A stretch of DNA of 64,000 bases. It comes from Defluviitaleaceae bacterium. Its GTDB lineage: Bacteria > Bacillota > Clostridia > Lachnospirales > WQUN01. The DNA is taken from NCBI GenBank assembly GCA_009788055.1, contig WQSG01000005.1:1-64000 (forward strand), written 5' to 3'. Of this stretch, positions 10,659 to 18,637 are shown piece after piece. A model generated the notes under the pieces. It saw nothing but the letters and a program-made list of their open reading frames with translations. It had not been told where the DNA came from and did no database searches. Position 1 is the first letter of the stretch, and each line of letters begins with the position of its first letter. The translations under genes and the position numbers were made by a program.

Positions 10659-10775
10659 AAACCGCGCAAATGCGCGGTTCTAGTTTTGCGGTGCAGTTTA
10701 TCGCTAGTCCATGTCAAAGTTTGGGTCAAGCCTTTTTAAAGGCTTGCGGGGTTCGGGGCAGAGCCCCGAGGTTTT
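10657..10775. repeat. Dispersed modular repeat, copy 4
   Basis: Sits between the convergent selO and smc genes. It begins with an AACCGCGC/GCGCGGTT hairpin, then CAAGCCTTTTTAAAGGCTTG, then GGGGC-AGA-GCCCC and CGAGGTTTT. The first hairpin probably terminates selO, and the last bases overlap the smc stop codon. Confidence 0.8.
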
Positions 10776-13700
10776 AATACTTCGTATCCGACTCCTCCAC
10801 AATTTTAACACTTACCATTTTAGAAACGCCTTGTTCTTCCATGGTAACGCCGTAAAGGGTATCGGCGGCTTCCATTGTGCCCTTGCGGTGGGTGATGATA
10901 ATGAACTGAGTGCCCTTCGCGTACTGTTTCAGAAAGTTTGCGAAACGGGCAACGTTTGCATCATCCAGCGCGGATTCGATTTCGTCCAAGACGCAGAAGG
11001 GCGATGGCTTCATCCGCAGGATGGAAAACAGAAGCGTGATTGCAGTAAGTGCGCGTTCGCCGCCGGAAAGAAGCATCAGGTTTTGCAAAGATTTTCCGGG
11101 GGGCTGGGCGATAATTTCTATGCCGGATTCCAGCACGTTTTCCGTATCCAAAAGGCGAAGGCTGGCTTTTCCGCCCTCAAACATCTCTTTAAAAACTTCG
11201 CTGAAATGCTCGGCTATTACCGCAAATTTTTCCGCAAAACGATTTTCCATTTCGGCGGTAAGGTTTGCGATAAGTTCGTTAAGGGCGGCTTCCGCTTCCA
11301 AAATATCGTCGCGCTGGGTTGTGAGAAAACCGTGGCGCGTTTTTATTTGCTTGAACGCCTCAATTGCGCCAAGGTTTACATCTGTCATGCCCGCAAGTTC
11401 GGACTTTAACTGCGAACCCGTTTTGCGAAGCGTTGCCTCGGTAAGGTCTTCGCGTTTGAATTGCATTGCGGTTTGATATGTCAACCCGTACTCTTCCCAT
11501 ACCTCGTTGTGCAAGCGGTGGCTGGACGCGTCAAGGCTTTCTTTGCGCGCTTCAAGGCGGGCGATTTCGCGCTCCAACAGGTTTGTTGCATCGGTTTGAC
11601 TGCGCTCGTCTGCTTCGGCTTTTGCAATGGCGGCATCAAGCGCGTTTTTTTCCGCCTCGCTTGCGGTTAGTTCTTTGCGCGATTCTTCCAGCCGCGATTG
11701 GATTTTTTCAAGCTGTGCCGCAATTTCTTGGCGGTTTTCTTGGGATTGTTTGATTGCCGTTTCGTTTGCGGAAATTTCTGCAAGAAGCATTTTCTTTTCC
11801 TGTTCCAGCGTTGAAATTTCCTTTTGCAAGCGCGAAATGTTGGACTTTGAGTGGGTGATTACCTCCGTTTTGCGGGTGATTTCTACGCGCAGTTCCGTTA
11901 CCGCGTCGGCTTCTTCCGTGATGGTTTTGCGGTTCTGCTCGGTTTCGCGCTGATAATTTTCCAGCGCGGCGCGGGCGTTTTCTACCAGTTCTTCTTTTTG
12001 CAGAAGCTCCGTTTTTGCAACACGAACCGCGCCGTTTGCTTCAACTATCCGTGCCATTATTTTTTCATTTTCTTCATTATAATTTTGCGAATTTTCTTGC
12101 AAAGTTTTTAGCGTCTCGTTTGCGTTTTGTTGTTTTGCGCGAAGATTTTTTTCTTCAAGTTGCAGTGTGCTTACGGTTTCATTTGTCTGCGCCAAAACGT
12201 CACGGGTGGTTGCACGTTTTTCGTTTAATTTTGCCTCACGCCGGTTGAGAATTTCCATGTCGCGTTGCAGTTCCGTTACTTCAATTTTCAGTTGCTCCAA
12301 CTGCCTAGCACGGCCTATTATTCCCGCGCTTTGCCGCGCCACGCTTCCGCCCGTTATCGCGCCGCCCGGGCTTAAACGCTCGCCGCCCTTGGTAACAATT
12401 TTGTATGAATATCTGAATTTTTTATGAAGCGCAAGGGCGTTTTCCAGCGTGTCCATTATCACGATATCGCCTAATAGTTGCGAAATTACGGGGGCGTAAA
12501 CGTCCTCGCAGTCCACCAGTTCGGCGGCAATGCCGATGTAGCCCTGCTCATTTTGCAAGCGGTATGTGTCGATGTTTCTGCCCTTCACAGCGGTAAGCGG
12601 CAGAAATGTTGCGCGGCCTTCCTTTGCGCGTTTCAGAAATTCGATTGCGTGTTTGGCATCACCCTCGGTTTTTGTGATGATGTTTTGTGCCGCGCCGCCC
12701 AGCGCGATTTCAATTGCCGTTTCAAACTCGTCCTCCACGCCGATTAACTCACCAACCGCGCCGCAAATGCCCGCAAATGCCGCGTCTGTTTTTTGCCGCG
12801 AAAGCACCGCTTTTACACTGCGGTAATATCCTTCATGCCCCGCTTCAAGGTCGGAGAGGGCGCGGAAACGTCCGCGTTTTGCCGTTAAATCTTCCGACGT
12901 AATGCGCAGTTCGCGTTGCAATGTGTCCGCTTCTGCGCGTAGCTGATTGTATGCTTTTGCGTAGTCCTCCTGATTTTTCAGCGCGGCGGAAAGCTCTTTT
13001 CCGCACGAATTTAACGCCCCTTCGTTTTGCGAAAACGCGGCAGTTGCTTCTTCAAGTCTGTCCTCGTGGCGTTCGATTTCTGTGTCCAGCCGCTCCTTGT
13101 CGTCCTCCAAGCGGCGGTACATATTTTCCGCTTCAAGCACGGCGGCGCGGCTTTCTGTGGCGGCTGTCATTGCGTCCATCACGTTTTGATTTAGGGAATC
13201 CGTTTCCGCCGCGCCCTCGCGCATGGCGTTTTCGTGGCGGGCGGAAATTTCCAATTGCTCTAACAATGCGTGGTTTAGCTCCGATACTTCTGATTGCATT
13301 GCGGAAACATTTTCTTCTTCCGCAGAAATTTCTTCATGCTTGCCCGCAATGCTACTGTCGCGTTTTTCCGCTTCCGTTTTTAGCCTCGCACTGTCCGTTT
13401 CAAGCTGAATACAACGACTTTCCGCCAACTTGATATCCGTTTGCTTTTGCTCGATTATTTTTGTGGTGTCAAGTAAATCCTCCGTGGCGCGGCGATAATT
13501 CGCGTCCGCCGCCGCCGCACGGTTCTTCAATTCTTCCCCCGCAGACCGCGCTTCCGTTAAAAGCCGCTTGCCGTCGCCCGACTGCGACATGATACTTTCA
13601 AGCGATTTTTCTGTATGCTCCATGTCATCATTTATTTTTCGGATATCCGCCAAAAAAATATTTAGGTGAACGCTCTTATATTCATCGCGCAATTCCAGAT

Positions 13701-14343
13701 ACCGCCGCGCTTCTTCGGATTGCGATTCCAGCGGCTCCAGTTGCTCGTCCAATTCCGCGATAATATCATCCACACGGGCGCGGTTTTCCCGCTCGCGCTC
13801 CAGTTTATTTAACGCTTCCGTTCGGCGCGATTTGTATTTGCTGATACCCGCCGCTTCTTCAAAAACGTGCCGTCTGTCTTCCGAACGAAGGCTTAGAATT
13901 TCGTCAATGCGCCCTTGCCCGATAATCGAATACCCATCACGCCCAACGCCCGTATCCATAAAAAGCATTGCGATATCCTTCAAACGACACGCCTCGCCGT
14001 TAATCAGATACTCGCTCTCCCCCGAACGATACACCCGCCGCGTTACAGAAATCTCTTTTTGTTCCAGCGGAAGCCGCTTGTCCGTATTATCCAAACGCAT
14101 AGTAATTTCCGCATAACCAAGCGGTTTGCGGTGCGCCGTTCCTGCAAAAATAATGTCTTCCATTTTTCCGCCGCGAAGCTGCTTCGCGCTTTGTTCGCCA
14201 AGCACCCAACGCAACGCATCGGCTATGTTCGATTTTCCGCTTCCGTTCGGCCCAACAACCGCGTTCATCCCCGGCCCAAAGTCCAACGAAATTCTATCTG
14301 CAAAGGATTTAAAACCCGCAAGTTCCAGTTTCTTCAGATGCAT
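10774..14343 (-). CDS. smc: Chromosome segregation protein SMC
   Basis: 1189 residues, the full family length. Walker A GPNGSGKSN near 32, a long coiled coil (about 170-500), the hinge (about 510-640, with GELIGVEDEFETAIEIALGG), a return coiled coil (about 660-1000), and at the C-terminus the LLSGGERALTAITLLFSIL signature and FCVLDEIESALDDANV Walker B. As a dimer with ScpA and ScpB it loads at the origin and extrudes loops to organise and segregate the chromosome. scpA and scpB are not in the window. The start has CAAGGACG upstream. Confidence 0.98.
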   Translation of the reverse strand: MHLKKLELAGFKSFADRISLDFGPGMNAVVGPNGSGKSNIADALRWVLGEQSAKQLRGGKMEDIIFAGTAHRKPLGYAEITMRLDNTDKRLPLEQKEISVTRRVYRSGESEYLINGEACRLKDIAMLFMDTGVGRDGYSIIGQGRIDEILSLRSEDRRHVFEEAAGISKYKSRRTEALNKLERERENRARVDDIIAELDEQLEPLESQSEEARRYLELRDEYKSVHLNIFLADIRKINDDMEHTEKSLESIMSQSGDGKRLLTEARSAGEELKNRAAAADANYRRATEDLLDTTKIIEQKQTDIKLAESRCIQLETDSARLKTEAEKRDSSIAGKHEEISAEEENVSAMQSEVSELNHALLEQLEISARHENAMREGAAETDSLNQNVMDAMTAATESRAAVLEAENMYRRLEDDKERLDTEIERHEDRLEEATAAFSQNEGALNSCGKELSAALKNQEDYAKAYNQLRAEADTLQRELRITSEDLTAKRGRFRALSDLEAGHEGYYRSVKAVLSRQKTDAAFAGICGAVGELIGVEDEFETAIEIALGGAAQNIITKTEGDAKHAIEFLKRAKEGRATFLPLTAVKGRNIDTYRLQNEQGYIGIAAELVDCEDVYAPVISQLLGDIVIMDTLENALALHKKFRYSYKIVTKGGERLSPGGAITGGSVARQSAGIIGRARQLEQLKIEVTELQRDMEILNRREAKLNEKRATTRDVLAQTNETVSTLQLEEKNLRAKQQNANETLKTLQENSQNYNEENEKIMARIVEANGAVRVAKTELLQKEELVENARAALENYQRETEQNRKTITEEADAVTELRVEITRKTEVITHSKSNISRLQKEISTLEQEKKMLLAEISANETAIKQSQENRQEIAAQLEKIQSRLEESRKELTASEAEKNALDAAIAKAEADERSQTDATNLLEREIARLEARKESLDASSHRLHNEVWEEYGLTYQTAMQFKREDLTEATLRKTGSQLKSELAGMTDVNLGAIEAFKQIKTRHGFLTTQRDDILEAEAALNELIANLTAEMENRFAEKFAVIAEHFSEVFKEMFEGGKASLRLLDTENVLESGIEIIAQPPGKSLQNLMLLSGGERALTAITLLFSILRMKPSPFCVLDEIESALDDANVARFANFLKQYAKGTQFIIITHRKGTMEAADTLYGVTMEEQGVSKMVSVKIVEESDTKY

Positions 14344-14437: not shown

Positions 14438-14773
14438 TTACCCGTTTAGCCCAAAAAAAGTAGCAATTGATGCTATTTTTGCTAACATCCCCACAGCTTC
14501 CTTCACAAGACTACCAGCCCCGGCGCAAAACCCATTAAACCCATACTTGCAGGCTAACTTATCTTCCTCACTTTCTGCAACGACAGCATCTTTAAGATAA
14601 TTTACTAATTGATTGCTTTTATCTTCAGGAATTGATAGGCTTTGAATACGCGGAATAATGCGCTCTACATCAACAGCCAAGTCGTTATTAGGTGATACTC
14701 CATGGTTTATTATATTCGTGCTATTGGAGCCAAAACTCACATTTCCATAATTATCTTTCAAATTATACGTCAT
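14438..14773 (-). CDS. Small protein with N-terminal amyloid-like motif and hydrophobic C-terminus
   Basis: 111 residues from the ATG within ATGACGTATAA, which is also the end of the upstream gene, so translation is coupled with an 11-bp overlap. The N-terminus has DNYGNVSFGSNSTNIINHG, a near repeat of the C-terminal motif of the partner protein. The pattern (V/I-S-F-G-x-x-S-x-N) recalls RHIM-like functional-amyloid motifs. A helical middle (30-80) and a hydrophobic helix (VGMLAKIASIATFFGL, about 93-108) follow. A membrane-active effector is conceivable; no homologue is recognised. Confidence 0.6.
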   Translation of the reverse strand: MTYNLKDNYGNVSFGSNSTNIINHGVSPNNDLAVDVERIIPRIQSLSIPEDKSNQLVNYLKDAVVAESEEDKLACKYGFNGFCAGAGSLVKEAVGMLAKIASIATFFGLNG

Positions 14774-15383
14774 AAGAGGATATCTCCCTGTTAAGAGTAT
14801 TTTCACTTCTATCACCAAAGCTTATGTTTCCCTTATTGTCGTCAATATTGATAACGAGAGTTTCACTTTGTGGTGTGCGACCCAAAAAGCGGTCTGTAAT
14901 TTCGCCTTGAAATTTAAACAATCCGTTTACATCCAGAGAAGAAAAAACAGCCACAAACCCTGAGTTCATTGTAATATGAAGCCCGAACACATCAATGTCC
15001 GGTTTGATAGATTTAAAATAGCTGTATATCATATATCCACAAAAAAGTAGCAAAACCAAGCCCAGTATAGCAACAGTAACACCATCAAGCGCAATAATTA
15101 GGATTAACGACACGACTATACCCGCAATCGTCCATACCGGGAAATTCGGAGTCCCGTCAATCCGGGCAGTCCTTCCCACCCAAGTCCTTGAAATATTTGA
15201 AATCTGCAAAGTAGTTCTGTTTGAATGCTCTTCTTGCCCCATGGCATCATAGCAAATGGAATTGTTTTCAAGCGTTACACGGCCATACTTTAAAACATTA
15301 TTTTTCTCACCACTATCGTTGTCTGTCTTGCCGCTGGTAGCATTCTTAATCACAGCCATATTTTCCAAAAACTTCTCAAACAT
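14763..15383 (-). CDS. Two-helix membrane protein with C-terminal amyloid-like motif
   Basis: 206 residues. A polar N-terminal region (1-75) is followed by two adjacent membrane helices (about 82-102 and 105-127), then a small beta-rich domain (about 130-170). The layout resembles DUF6232-type small membrane proteins, though I am not sure of that. The last 30 residues contain DDNKGNISFGDRSENTLNR, matching the start of the downstream protein. The pair overlaps by 11 bp. No signal peptide is present. The function is unknown; signalling between the two proteins through the shared motif is my inference. Confidence 0.6.
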   Translation of the reverse strand: MFEKFLENMAVIKNATSGKTDNDSGEKNNVLKYGRVTLENNSICYDAMGQEEHSNRTTLQISNISRTWVGRTARIDGTPNFPVWTIAGIVVSLILIIALDGVTVAILGLVLLLFCGYMIYSYFKSIKPDIDVFGLHITMNSGFVAVFSSLDVNGLFKFQGEITDRFLGRTPQSETLVINIDDNKGNISFGDRSENTLNREISSYDV

Positions 15384-15679: not shown

Positions 15680-16429
15680 TCACGGGCATCGCGCCAGAAT
15701 ATACACAAGTTCGTTGCCGATATGTGCGGTTGCGGTTTGGGTGAAATTGTGCAACAACCCGCTTTCACAAGCGTTTGCGAAAAGCGCGGCATAGTTTTTT
15801 TCCATGCCCTTGTCGCGCCCGCCAAGGCTTTTTGTTGGGAATGAAACGACCAAAAACCGCGTGTTTAGTGCATTCGCAAGGGAGAAGCCCCTGTTTTTGC
15901 ACTGCGCTTCCAAAACGGGTACGAGCTTTAGCATGAATGCGACATCTACCGCTTCGGAGGGGGTTTCCACGGCAAGGTCTGCGCAGGCGGCGGCGGGCGG
16001 AAGCCCGATTTTCCCGAAGAAAATGTTTAGCAAATCCCGTGTGCGCAGGTCGATATCGTATGCGTGGTACGCCGCTAAATTGCGCGTTAATTCCCGTGGC
16101 ATTAGCGGGATGGAAAACGGGTTAAACCCGCAGCCAAGGTCTAAAATTTGCGTGACGCTTTCGCCCGCGTGTTTTAGCACGAACGCAAAAAAATCCTGCA
16201 AGTGGGGCAACCGCTCTTTTGTGGATGCGTGTAATTGCAAGATTTTTTCCGCAGGTTCTTCCAACAAACCTGCCGCTTTTTTATGCGCGTTGCCCTGCAA
16301 ATACGCGCCGTATAGCTGGTGCATTCGTGTTTTGGCGGCCTTTGTCGGGTCTTTTTTTTCGCTTTCTTCCGCGATAATCCGCGCTACCAGCGGCGGGTAA
16401 ATCATGTTGTATTTCGCGCTTAGTGTCAT
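15680..16429 (-). CDS. 16S rRNA (guanine1405-N7)-methyltransferase, ArmA/Rmt-like
   Basis: 249 residues, the same length as RmtB. The family's blocks occur in order: KTRMHQLYGAYL near 33, LHASTKERLP near 68, the SAM-binding LDLGCGFNPFSIPL near 96, FMLKLVPVLEAQ near 166, VVSFPTKSLGGRDKGMEKNY near 195, and IGNELVYIL at the end. Known members methylate N7 of G1405 in the decoding site of 16S rRNA and block 4,6-disubstituted deoxystreptamine aminoglycosides. The start overlaps the tgt stop by ATGA, so the two are co-translated. No mobile element borders it. Resistance in this host is inferred, not shown. Confidence 0.88.
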   Translation of the reverse strand: MTLSAKYNMIYPPLVARIIAEESEKKDPTKAAKTRMHQLYGAYLQGNAHKKAAGLLEEPAEKILQLHASTKERLPHLQDFFAFVLKHAGESVTQILDLGCGFNPFSIPLMPRELTRNLAAYHAYDIDLRTRDLLNIFFGKIGLPPAAACADLAVETPSEAVDVAFMLKLVPVLEAQCKNRGFSLANALNTRFLVVSFPTKSLGGRDKGMEKNYAALFANACESGLLHNFTQTATAHIGNELVYILARCP

Positions 16430-17667
16430 CGTAATTGCTCCATAAGCATATTAAAAAAACGCAAATTGTGAATTGTTGCAAGGCGGTGCGCAAGGCTGTC
16501 GCCAATGCTTGCCAAGTGCCGCAAGTATGCTCGAGAATAATTTTGGCAGGTGTGACAGTCGCAAATGCGCGAAATTGGGCGTGGGTCGCGGCGGTATTCA
16601 TCGTCTAAAATATAGTGATATTTGTAAAAACTTTTGCCCGTACCAAGTTCAATATCGCTCGCCGTTTCAAATTCTTCATTAAAAACATAAAGCCTGTTGT
16701 GCCTCGCTTCCCGCGTGGGAATCACGCAGTCGAACAGGTTATACCCCATCTTAGCACAGGCAACAATATTCTCCGGCCTGCCAATTCCCATTGCGTATTT
16801 CACGCCGCCCTGCGGCATAAGTTCTGCCGTGTACGCCAAGATTTCTTCCGTAAGACGCCCCTCTGCGTCCAGCGGCCAGCCGCCAAAACCAAAGCCCTCA
16901 TATCCCATTTCAATTAGCGCATCCGCACATTCCTTGCGCAAATTTTTTTCGTTACCGCCTTGGATTATTCCGAAGAGCAAGTTCTCGGGGACAGTGCCGT
17001 TCGCTTCGCTCACTTCATTATCCCCGAACCCCTGCAAGCCTTTGAAAAGGCTTGACCCAAACTTTTTATTAAAATCGCGCGAATGCGCGATTTTTGTTAA
17101 AGTTTTTGTCGAACTTTTTTCAAAAAGTTCGCAGGGGTGTGGGGACGGAGTCCCCACGGTCTTTTTCACAGAAGCCGTAAATATAGCCATACACTTTTTG
17201 CCCCAGCGGATTGTAGTGTCAACTGCCTTTGACTGAATATCGTAGGAATCAGACGGGTGGGTGCAGTAGTCGAGAGCCATTAGGATATCGGAGCCGTATG
17301 CCAGTTGGGATTGAATGCACTTTTCGGGCGAGAGAACGGTCTTTTTTCCGTCGCGGCGAAAGATAATTTCATTTGGGCGGATTTCTCCCATGGACGAATT
17401 TTCGCGCAACAAAGAAAACACCTGAAACCCGCCCGAATCCGTGACGATTGGGCGTTTCCAACCCGTGAATGCGTTTAGGCCGCCCATTGCCTTAATCGTG
17501 GACGCGCCCGGTTTTGTCATCAAATGGTAGGCGTTCATTACAATGCCCTGCACGCCGCAGTTTTCCAAGTCCATGCTGTCAACGGTGCGCACAACGCCGC
17601 GTGTTCCGTCGGGGAAAAACGCGGGTAGCCGCACCATTCCGTGGGGTAAAAAAATTTCCTTAGTCAC
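16426..17667 (-). CDS. tgt: Queuine tRNA-ribosyltransferase family protein carrying an in-frame repeat insertion
   Basis: 413 residues. Family marks are DSGGFQVFSLL (near 77), LLFGIIQGG (near 232), FDCVIPTREARHNRLYV with the nucleophilic Asp (near 317), and the zinc site CDCHTCQ...H (near 373). Tgt exchanges guanine 34 of certain tRNAs for a queuine precursor. The GG-L-V-G-E motif is changed to GGWPLDAEG, so this is a divergent branch. Between AIFTASV and LLFGIIQGG lie 62 residues encoded by a dispersed repeat; without them the protein would be 351 residues. It overlaps the metallo-hydrolase by 8 bp and the Rmt-like gene by 4 bp. Activity is uncertain. Confidence 0.85.
   Translation of the reverse strand: MTKEIFLPHGMVRLPAFFPDGTRGVVRTVDSMDLENCGVQGIVMNAYHLMTKPGASTIKAMGGLNAFTGWKRPIVTDSGGFQVFSLLRENSSMGEIRPNEIIFRRDGKKTVLSPEKCIQSQLAYGSDILMALDYCTHPSDSYDIQSKAVDTTIRWGKKCMAIFTASVKKTVGTPSPHPCELFEKSSTKTLTKIAHSRDFNKKFGSSLFKGLQGFGDNEVSEANGTVPENLLFGIIQGGNEKNLRKECADALIEMGYEGFGFGGWPLDAEGRLTEEILAYTAELMPQGGVKYAMGIGRPENIVACAKMGYNLFDCVIPTREARHNRLYVFNEEFETASDIELGTGKSFYKYHYILDDEYRRDPRPISRICDCHTCQNYSRAYLRHLASIGDSLAHRLATIHNLRFFNMLMEQLR
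16979..17164. repeat. Dispersed modular repeat, copy 5, inserted in frame inside tgt
   Basis: Read on the minus strand it starts AAGACCGTGGGG (17164 downward) and ends CCCCGAGAACTT (16979). Modules: GGGGAC-TCC-GTCCCC, the GAACTTTTT hairpin, AAATCGCGC/GCGCGATTT, AAGCCTTTTCAAAGGCTT, and the GTGAGCG...CGAACGGCAC module. The length is 186 bp, exactly 62 codons, with no stop in the tgt frame. Intergenic copies of the same modules show that it is an insertion and not part of the Tgt fold. Confidence 0.9.
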
Positions 17668-18637
17668 GTATAAGCCTCTGTTTGTCGCTTCGCACTTGAA
17701 AGCTGTTTGTCATTGTGAAGAAAGTTTCCGCGCCCACTTCGTCCAGCAAAGATATGATGTTGTCATCGGTTGGGCGTTCGGGATAAAATTCGTCTATCAT
17801 GGTGGGGCAGAACCCTGTGATTACGGCATATTGCGGGCTTACGGCTCTTATAAACCGTGGTGCGCGTCTGTCGAAACGCCCGTGCCGCTGAACTTTTAAG
17901 AAGTCGAAATCTGTATCCATAAATTCTTCGCAGTCCAGCAATAATTGTCTGCGGCCGGTGGTTGCGTCTGCCATAAACAGGAAATTATTGTTGCCGTGTT
18001 CCACGCGCACAACAATGGAGAAATCGTCCCCCGTGGGGATGAAATTTCCATCATTGTCGAATTGGTCTTCTTCTTCCAATTCAATATCATAGTCGTCGTT
18101 GATATCAATGCCGACGAAGGAGAAGTACGGCAAATCGGACGGGCACACAATAAAGTGGGCGTCATCCAAGCTGAAGCGGATTTCTTCCATTAATACGTGC
18201 GGCACAATACCCGCGTTTTGCACCGCTTCTTGGAAGCGGCGCGTGTGACGCGTATCCCTGCTGTAGTTTGGCACAATAACATTTTGTACTTCCAAAATAT
18301 TAATCACTTGGCTTGCGCCGCCAACATGGTCTGCGTCAAAATGCGTGATGATTAAATAATCCAGCGTCGTAATTCCGCGCCCCATAAGCGTGCCTGCAAT
18401 CGGGCCGCCGTGGCGGTTTTCGCCGGAGTCGATTAAAACGGCATGGTTTTCCGTCGTGATAAGAATAGCGTCCGCCCTGCCTATGCCAAAAACAAAAACT
18501 TCCATCATGCCCGCCATTTCGGATATCGGTTCCGGCTCGGGTTCAGGCACGTACCACGGCTGCATTTCTTCGCAATTGCAACCGCAGGCGGTAAGCAAAA
18601 ATAATAAAATCCCCGCTGCAAAAAATATTTTTTTCAT
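17660..18637 (-). CDS. Lipoprotein with ComEC-like metallo-beta-lactamase fold
   Basis: 325 residues. A signal peptide ends in lipobox LLTAC (lipidated Cys near 18), so it is likely anchored outside the membrane. The metallo-beta-lactamase motif THFDADHVGG near 98 is intact, and LIDSGENRHGG precedes it near 69. The domain is of the ComEC C-terminal type, in which soluble members are hydrolases acting on nucleic acid or small phosphodiesters. An acidic insert (about 180-200) is unusual. It overlaps tgt by 8 bp and begins the metallo-hydrolase-tgt-rmt run. Confidence 0.8.
   Translation of the reverse strand: MKKIFFAAGILLFLLTACGCNCEEMQPWYVPEPEPEPISEMAGMMEVFVFGIGRADAILITTENHAVLIDSGENRHGGPIAGTLMGRGITTLDYLIITHFDADHVGGASQVINILEVQNVIVPNYSRDTRHTRRFQEAVQNAGIVPHVLMEEIRFSLDDAHFIVCPSDLPYFSFVGIDINDDYDIELEEEDQFDNDGNFIPTGDDFSIVVRVEHGNNNFLFMADATTGRRQLLLDCEEFMDTDFDFLKVQRHGRFDRRAPRFIRAVSPQYAVITGFCPTMIDEFYPERPTDDNIISLLDEVGAETFFTMTNSFQVRSDKQRLIRD

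Follow-up and report, generated by a model that had tools for sequence, protein, structure and literature searches.

The window, a stretch of 64,000 nucleotides from a Defluviitaleaceae contig, carries a gene (rmt) for an Rmt/ArmA-type methyltransferase, translationally coupled to a tgt gene from a separate, rmt-linked clade of tRNA-guanine transglycosylases that we name Tgt2. We consider it likely that a resident m7G1405 methyltransferase and Tgt2 together form a module for modifying the ribosomal decoding centre, and that the wider pool of such modules supplied the acquired Rmt genes. In this model, the SAM-dependent Rmt would most likely methylate G1405 at its N7 position, in h44 of the cell's own 16S rRNA, on the assembled 30S subunit. 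It would be co-produced with Tgt2, usually behind rsmI, whose product methylates a site, C1402, only three nucleotides from G1405. RsmI and RsmH both methylate C1402, and m7G1405 blocks aminoglycosides of the 4,6-disubstituted 2-deoxystreptamine (4,6-DOS) type. The module would tune the decoding centre, with intrinsic resistance to 4,6-DOS aminoglycosides as a consequence, and its counterparts in other Bacillota-type lineages are the likely capture source of clinical rmtB, rmtD, rmtE and rmtG.

The features of the locus are collected in Table 1. The tgt2–rmt junction reads ...ACGATGACA..., the TGA stop of tgt2 overlapping the ATG of rmt, and with the ATGA overlap and the GGAG site the coupling to tgt described in the initial annotation is exact. 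The start of tgt2 is itself overlapped, by 8 nt, by the metallo-beta-lactamase-fold (MBL) lipoprotein gene, which was not found beside tgt2-rmt in the relatives' loci examined. The rmt gene is single-copy in its genome. No transposase or integrase was noticed near it among the genes examined, in keeping with the absence of visible mobile context reported initially, and a search of phage records for similar genes returned none except two ArmA-like ones. Downstream of rmt, at 14438-15383, lie two small overlapping ORFs, one with a weak DUF6232 match just below the cut-off.

Table 1 Features of the rmt locus in the window
Position	Strand	Feature	Basis
10774-14343		SMC-like gene near rmt	
15680..16429	(-)	rmt, Rmt/ArmA-type 16S rRNA (G1405-N7) methyltransferase (predicted), 249 aa, ATG start	PF07091, residues, AF2 model
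16426..16429	(-)	ATGA, 4-nt overlap of tgt2 stop and rmt start (translational coupling)	sequence
16438..16441	(-)	GGAG, Shine-Dalgarno-like site for rmt, within tgt2, 8 nt before the start	sequence
16426..17667	(-)	tgt2, rmt-linked paralogue of tRNA-guanine transglycosylase, 413 aa, GTG start	PF01702 309.5 bits; clade; GGWP signature and V45D; Z 45
17021..17166	(-)	palindromic interspersed repeat, in frame within tgt2, about residues 165-222	copies in window
17660..18637	(-)	metallo-beta-lactamase-fold lipoprotein gene, between rsmI and tgt2	PF00753 62.6 bits
18676..19536	(-)	rsmI, 16S rRNA (C1402-2'-O)-methyltransferase, the genome's only rsmI	TIGR00096 216 bits, over cut-off

The window Rmt aligns with Pfam PF07091 (FmrO) end to end, over profile positions 2-255 of 255, at 119.5 bits (gathering score 27). 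In an NCBIfam search it was matched by all eight reported Rmt models, best by the generic one at 219.3 bits; because this falls short of the 250-bit cut-off of the curated Rmt equivalog NF000466, we class the protein within the family, with a probable Rmt-like function, and not as an Rmt equivalog. Its only significant PDB matches are RmtB, RmtF, Sgm, ArmA and RmtC. Identity to the verified enzymes is 28-37%, with RmtB at the top (37%), so that the protein is not highly identical to any named acquired allele (RmtB-RmtG, ArmA). The A1408 methyltransferases NpmA and KamB gave no chain among the PDB matches to E 10 and no Pfam or NCBIfam match. Alignment with ArmA, RmtB, C, D, E, F, G and Sgm defines 20 invariant columns, 19 of which are retained, the sole departure being L to M at position 36; residue roles were judged from this conservation. 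The AF2 model (pLDDT 96.3) includes the N-terminal domain of the family fold and superposes on RmtF (Z 29.4, 2.1 Å, 237 residues), RmtB (Z 29.2, 1.6 Å, 225 residues) and Sgm (Z 28.9), the first unrelated methyltransferase following at Z 14.7. The original call of a full-length RmtB/ArmA-family gene therefore stands, with Z about 29. The protein shares whole-length homology, fold and 19 of the 20 invariant residues with the acquired enzymes RmtB, E, F, D, G, ArmA and RmtC but differs from them in its low identity, its sub-threshold NCBI score and its placement in a clade of its own with termite-gut Defluviitaleaceae genes. No 16S rRNA gene is assembled in the window genome, so the target site was checked in five other genomes with rmt, tgt2 and an assembled 16S gene; the h44 sequence GCCCGUCA, with G1405, is kept in all five.

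A housekeeping methyltransferase of the same fold could act on another nucleotide of 16S rRNA or tRNA and give no aminoglycoside resistance, a variant that the initial annotation had also allowed. We regard it as quite unlikely, although the score under the curated Rmt cut-off and the tight linkage to a tRNA-type enzyme would suit it, and divergent forms do occur in the family: homologues in DPANN archaea lack G208, M209 and Y213. This G208-M209-Y213 block is among the invariant residues that the window Rmt retains. Other tgt-linked bacterial homologues keep 94% of the invariant-column cells; the DPANN homologues keep 76%. A homologue of a bacterial 16S methyltransferase that is specific to Nanoarchaeota has been noted before (PMC3655853), and many Woese- and Nanoarchaeota (L091-L119) carry such FmrO homologues. 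These have the SAM-binding block, H67, S69, E72, R73 and K168 in common with the window Rmt but, besides lacking the G-M-Y block, have no tgt neighbour and form a separate clade. Phylogeny also disfavours another target. In an Rmt tree of 92 rows, from which NpmA and KamB were left out because no similarity to them was found, the RmtE2 group, the window clade and ArmA (on a long branch) share one Bacillota group (97/85). Furthermore, plasmid-borne tgt2 genes are linked to rmtB2, D1, E2 and G, which are annotated and known for G1405. We infer that G1405 is the target of the window Rmt and that its methylation would confer aminoglycoside resistance.

Besides the rmt-linked Tgt, the window genome encodes a housekeeping Tgt (contig 22); the two are 30% identical across their full length. 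In a tree, 47 rmt-linked Tgts and one divergent Dojkabacteria sequence are split from 34 housekeeping Tgts by a branch with 100% support. Judged by sequence, the tgt adjoining rmt does not encode the housekeeping enzyme of queuosine synthesis but Tgt2, a separate paralogue that accompanies rmt; the initial annotation had missed this. The fold (Z 45 for the window model against Z. mobilis TGT) and catalytic apparatus are those of the housekeeping enzymes of Z. mobilis and E. coli. In Z. mobilis numbering, the nucleophile Asp280, the acid/base Asp102 and the guanine-binding Asp156, Gln203 and Gly230 are retained in essentially all 47 sequences, as are all zinc ligands; Arg286/289 are also kept. 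Tgt2 is unlike housekeeping Tgt, with which it shares most of its genomes, in its base pocket: V45D (46/46), L231W (46/47), A232P (47/47), V233L (39/47) and mostly G234D, with a variable residue at the Glu235 position. The preQ1/guanine switch of housekeeping Tgt (Leu231-Ala232 with Glu235, Val233) is not kept. In the Z. mobilis enzyme a flip of the Leu231/Ala232 peptide, with Glu235 as partner, reads guanine or preQ1, and Val233 and Cys158 bear on queuine (PMC3660597). The 231/232 amide NH of ordinary Tgt faces the bound guanine; in Tgt2, Pro232 would leave no amide NH for guanine N7, and a Trp and an Asp lie near the pocket. With its catalytic residues intact and its pocket changed, Tgt2 looks like an active transglycosylase with a different base preference and perhaps a different RNA. 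The module thereby draws attention to a clade of transglycosylases whose base pocket has been rebuilt.

The closest relatives of the window rmt in the named collection are Defluviitaleaceae metagenome-assembled genomes (MAGs) from termite gut, and most reports of the family come from the P1 compartment of the gut in higher termites (PMC7024585). Within the family, rmt orthologues occur in 20 of 38 genomes (MAG data) at 38-67% identity, mostly directly behind tgt and in many genomes in the order rsmI-tgt2-rmt. About half of the family does without the pair, which is thus dispensable. All 19 rmt-positive family genomes examined have Tgt2, and all 17 rmt-negative genomes with any Tgt have the housekeeping type alone (Fisher p 1e-10, relatedness ignored). 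The two genes are non-adjacent in five rmt-positive genomes, and the co-occurrence holds where they lie apart (G018, G019, G031). Another family of the same order also has tgt2-rmt (L038), its Rmt being 30-32% identical. Among 391 Clostridia genomes, Tgt2-range scores (391-565 bits) appear only in three with full-length rmt, and other Tgts among the matches listed reach at most 337 bits. An Rmt profile search across Clostridia scored 97 genomes, nearly all at 17-29 bits; clear homologues are present in four, and the 17-29-bit matches, probably generic methyltransferases, were rejected. One relative (G024) has two rmt homologues, of which the second, a divergent one, does not lie near tgt2 (L039:6784-7548). 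We also considered whether the rsmI of the module is a second, dedicated copy and rejected this, as rsmI is single-copy in nearly every genome checked.

Outside the family, Tgt2 lies beside rmt at 27 bacterial loci, some clipped by contig ends, in Chloroflexota, Hydrogenedentes, Eisenbacteria, Fermentibacteria, Nitrospirota, WWE3, Dojkabacteria, Treponema, Lachnospiraceae and Oscillospiraceae. Both gene orders are found (L064, L079, L081, L084, L090), and rsmI adjoins the pair at 10 of the 27. Rmt homologues are present in 57 of 301 Chloroflexota genomes; 30 of these loci were read, and 26 have Tgt2 no more than 1.5 kb away. Chloroflexus islandicus is one carrier of the pair, and the Chloroflexus Tgt2 has no in-frame repeat like that of the window gene. 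Two or more Tgts are present in 15 of 17 rmt-bearing genomes from other phyla and families, or in 15 of the 16 with any Tgt. Two Anaerolineae loci (L065 and L069) have two rmt homologues each, and the 0.6-Mb genome of a WWE3 bacterium encodes Tgt2 and Rmt without a housekeeping Tgt (L083:3575-4621). No Tgt2 was found near rmt at 26 archaeal loci or at either Saccharomonospora locus, and Saccharomonospora has no Tgt in its genome; the methyltransferase can thus work without Tgt2.

Could the link to tgt be a shared neighbourhood left by gene order, with Tgt2 and Rmt functionally untied? Gene order near rsmI is partly conserved regardless, and the two genes are separate in some genomes. Yet their co-occurrence survives that separation, the pair recurs in both orders and in unrelated phyla, and the dedicated paralogue Tgt2 carries a distinctive signature, which together make a mere neighbourhood effect improbable. 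We infer instead that Tgt2 acts in the same process as Rmt.

The patchy distribution in the family could also reflect recent horizontal acquisition of a resistance gene protecting against aminoglycoside-producing actinomycetes in termite guts. Transfer does occur: a termite-gut Treponema has the module (L075), with an rsmI-tgt2-rmt arrangement closest to termite-gut Lachnospiraceae genes and RmtE2, which suggests movement between gut phyla. In addition, a genome of the same genus that lacks rmt (G001) keeps the upstream gene and rsmI, followed by a 1041-aa ORF where tgt2-rmt would be. However, orthologues 49-67% identical recur in the same position across many genera, the window Rmt falls inside a Defluviitaleaceae clade (100/100) mirrored by a similar Tgt2 tree, and the genes noticed nearby include no mobile ones. 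Any transfer would have to be ancient and to involve the entire pair, and a recent arrival seems highly improbable. The window rmt is a resident gene, gained or lost as a pair with tgt2, and not a recent insertion; its family orthologues with conserved synteny fit the initial view that the homologue is native to, or has long been settled in, a Clostridium-like host.

Searching with the window Tgt recovered Tgt2-type genes on plasmids of Providencia, Klebsiella, Enterobacter and E. coli at 46-61% identity, ordinary Tgts being 28-34% identical. An acquired rmt adjoins tgt2 at all six plasmid loci opened. The rmtB2 plasmid has the order tgt2, a metallophosphoesterase gene, rmtB2; the rmtD1 plasmid has tgt2-rmtD1; the rmtE2 plasmids have a truncated tgt2 followed by rmtE2; and the rmtG plasmids have rsmH-tgt2-rmtG and tgt2-rmtG. 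RmtB2, D1, E2 and G thus share the Tgt2 partner of the window Rmt, although theirs lies on plasmids and the window rmt is chromosomal. In the rmtG cassette of pKP13f (L210:3063-6126), a full-length rsmH (380 bits) lies upstream and an N-terminal rsmI fragment downstream, indicating that a larger rRNA-modification cluster was captured. No tgt was seen beside the plasmid genes for ArmA, RmtC, RmtF and RmtB1, for which most of the flanks read are short (600 bases for ArmA, RmtC and RmtF). A putative tRNA ribosyltransferase upstream of rmtG on pKP13f was reported previously (PMC3904158); the pair there is the same as in the window, but the neighbour was not recognised as a separate clade or part of a conserved module. 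A global RmtE survey makes no mention of the tgt2 gene (PMC10132066). We found no paper in the open-access library searched that names the Tgt2 clade or the module, which is weak evidence of novelty.

The trees of Rmt and Tgt2 agree where they can be compared, and their pairwise identities correlate over 41 loci (Spearman 0.49, the pairs being non-independent). The nearest relatives found for RmtE2 are tgt2-linked genes from Lachnospiraceae, Treponema and Oscillospiraceae of termite guts, which are 40-48% identical to it and share its clade (100/99); the Tgt2 partner of RmtE2 is likewise placed with these three organisms (97). One clade, whose position is unsettled, unites RmtB, D, F and G. 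Among the plasmid Tgt2s, the partners of RmtB2, D1 and G cluster with one another (99), and the Bacillota Tgt2 clade encloses all four (99). These placements suggest that the acquired genes probably derive from Bacillota-type bacteria or something borrowing from them, a direction of transfer read from the trees. We rejected the window gene as a direct ancestor of an acquired gene, given identities of at most 37% and its position in a sister clade. The idea of an ancestral reservoir, raised in the initial annotation, accordingly holds for a wider chromosomal reservoir, with which rmtB2, D1, E2 and G share the tgt partner, but not for the window gene itself. Another chromosomal origin, as the self-resistance gene of an aminoglycoside producer, seems barely credible. 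Sgm and related producer enzymes, including the Saccharomonospora homologues, do belong to the same family and resemble the window Rmt in fold and invariant residues, but the window neighbours are rsmI, tgt2, the MBL lipoprotein gene and an SMC-like gene, with no antibiotic biosynthesis genes at the locus. Sgm groups with Saccharomonospora, near Chloroflexota genes and outside the window clade, and the Saccharomonospora genes have no tgt2 beside them.

The likely module of Rmt and Tgt2 bears on the origin of acquired 16S rRNA methyltransferases, as the tgt2 passenger is a second, independent marker of the donor, and its presence beside rmtB2, rmtD1, rmtE2 and rmtG points toward Bacillota-type donors. 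It further suggests that methylation at G1405 started out as routine ribosome maintenance, or still serves as such, and not only as drug defence. That genes for C1402 and G1405 enzymes cluster is readily understood as co-regulation of modifications at neighbouring sites. Resistance methyltransferases disturb nearby housekeeping methylation: one account cites ArmA as blocking RsmI at C1402, and Sgm and RmtC as blocking RsmF at C1407 (PMC12406665). For Tgt2, the reading that we rank first, at slightly less than an even chance, is the cautious one, in which Tgt2 would exchange the wobble base of tRNA to suit an m7G1405 ribosome. A bolder reading, ranked second and in our judgement unlikely, is a base exchange in decoding-centre rRNA; the remaining probability goes to something else. 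In the bolder case Tgt2 would exchange or remove a base at or near G1405, and it is similarly doubtful that Rmt and Tgt2 constitute an unrecognised rRNA base-editing system. A base lacking a free N7 would match the altered pocket, and the characterised partners in the module (RsmI, RsmH and Rmt) all act within four nucleotides of one another. Both 7-deazaguanines and 7-methylguanine would fit the Tgt2 pocket.

The palindromic repeat carried in frame by tgt2 contains an inverted repeat (17041-17124) and encodes a segment predicted to be disordered. Further copies lie in the window near 303, 5909, 10716, 32463, 55949 and 63180, and many partial matches occur genome-wide. The element resembles the in-gene palindromic elements known from Rickettsia. 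In-frame inserts are also present in the rmt genes of close relatives (L026:2316-3215, L028:111-1040, L033:998-1828), with the insert motif SASAxSLE-G occurring twice within one relative's rmt gene.
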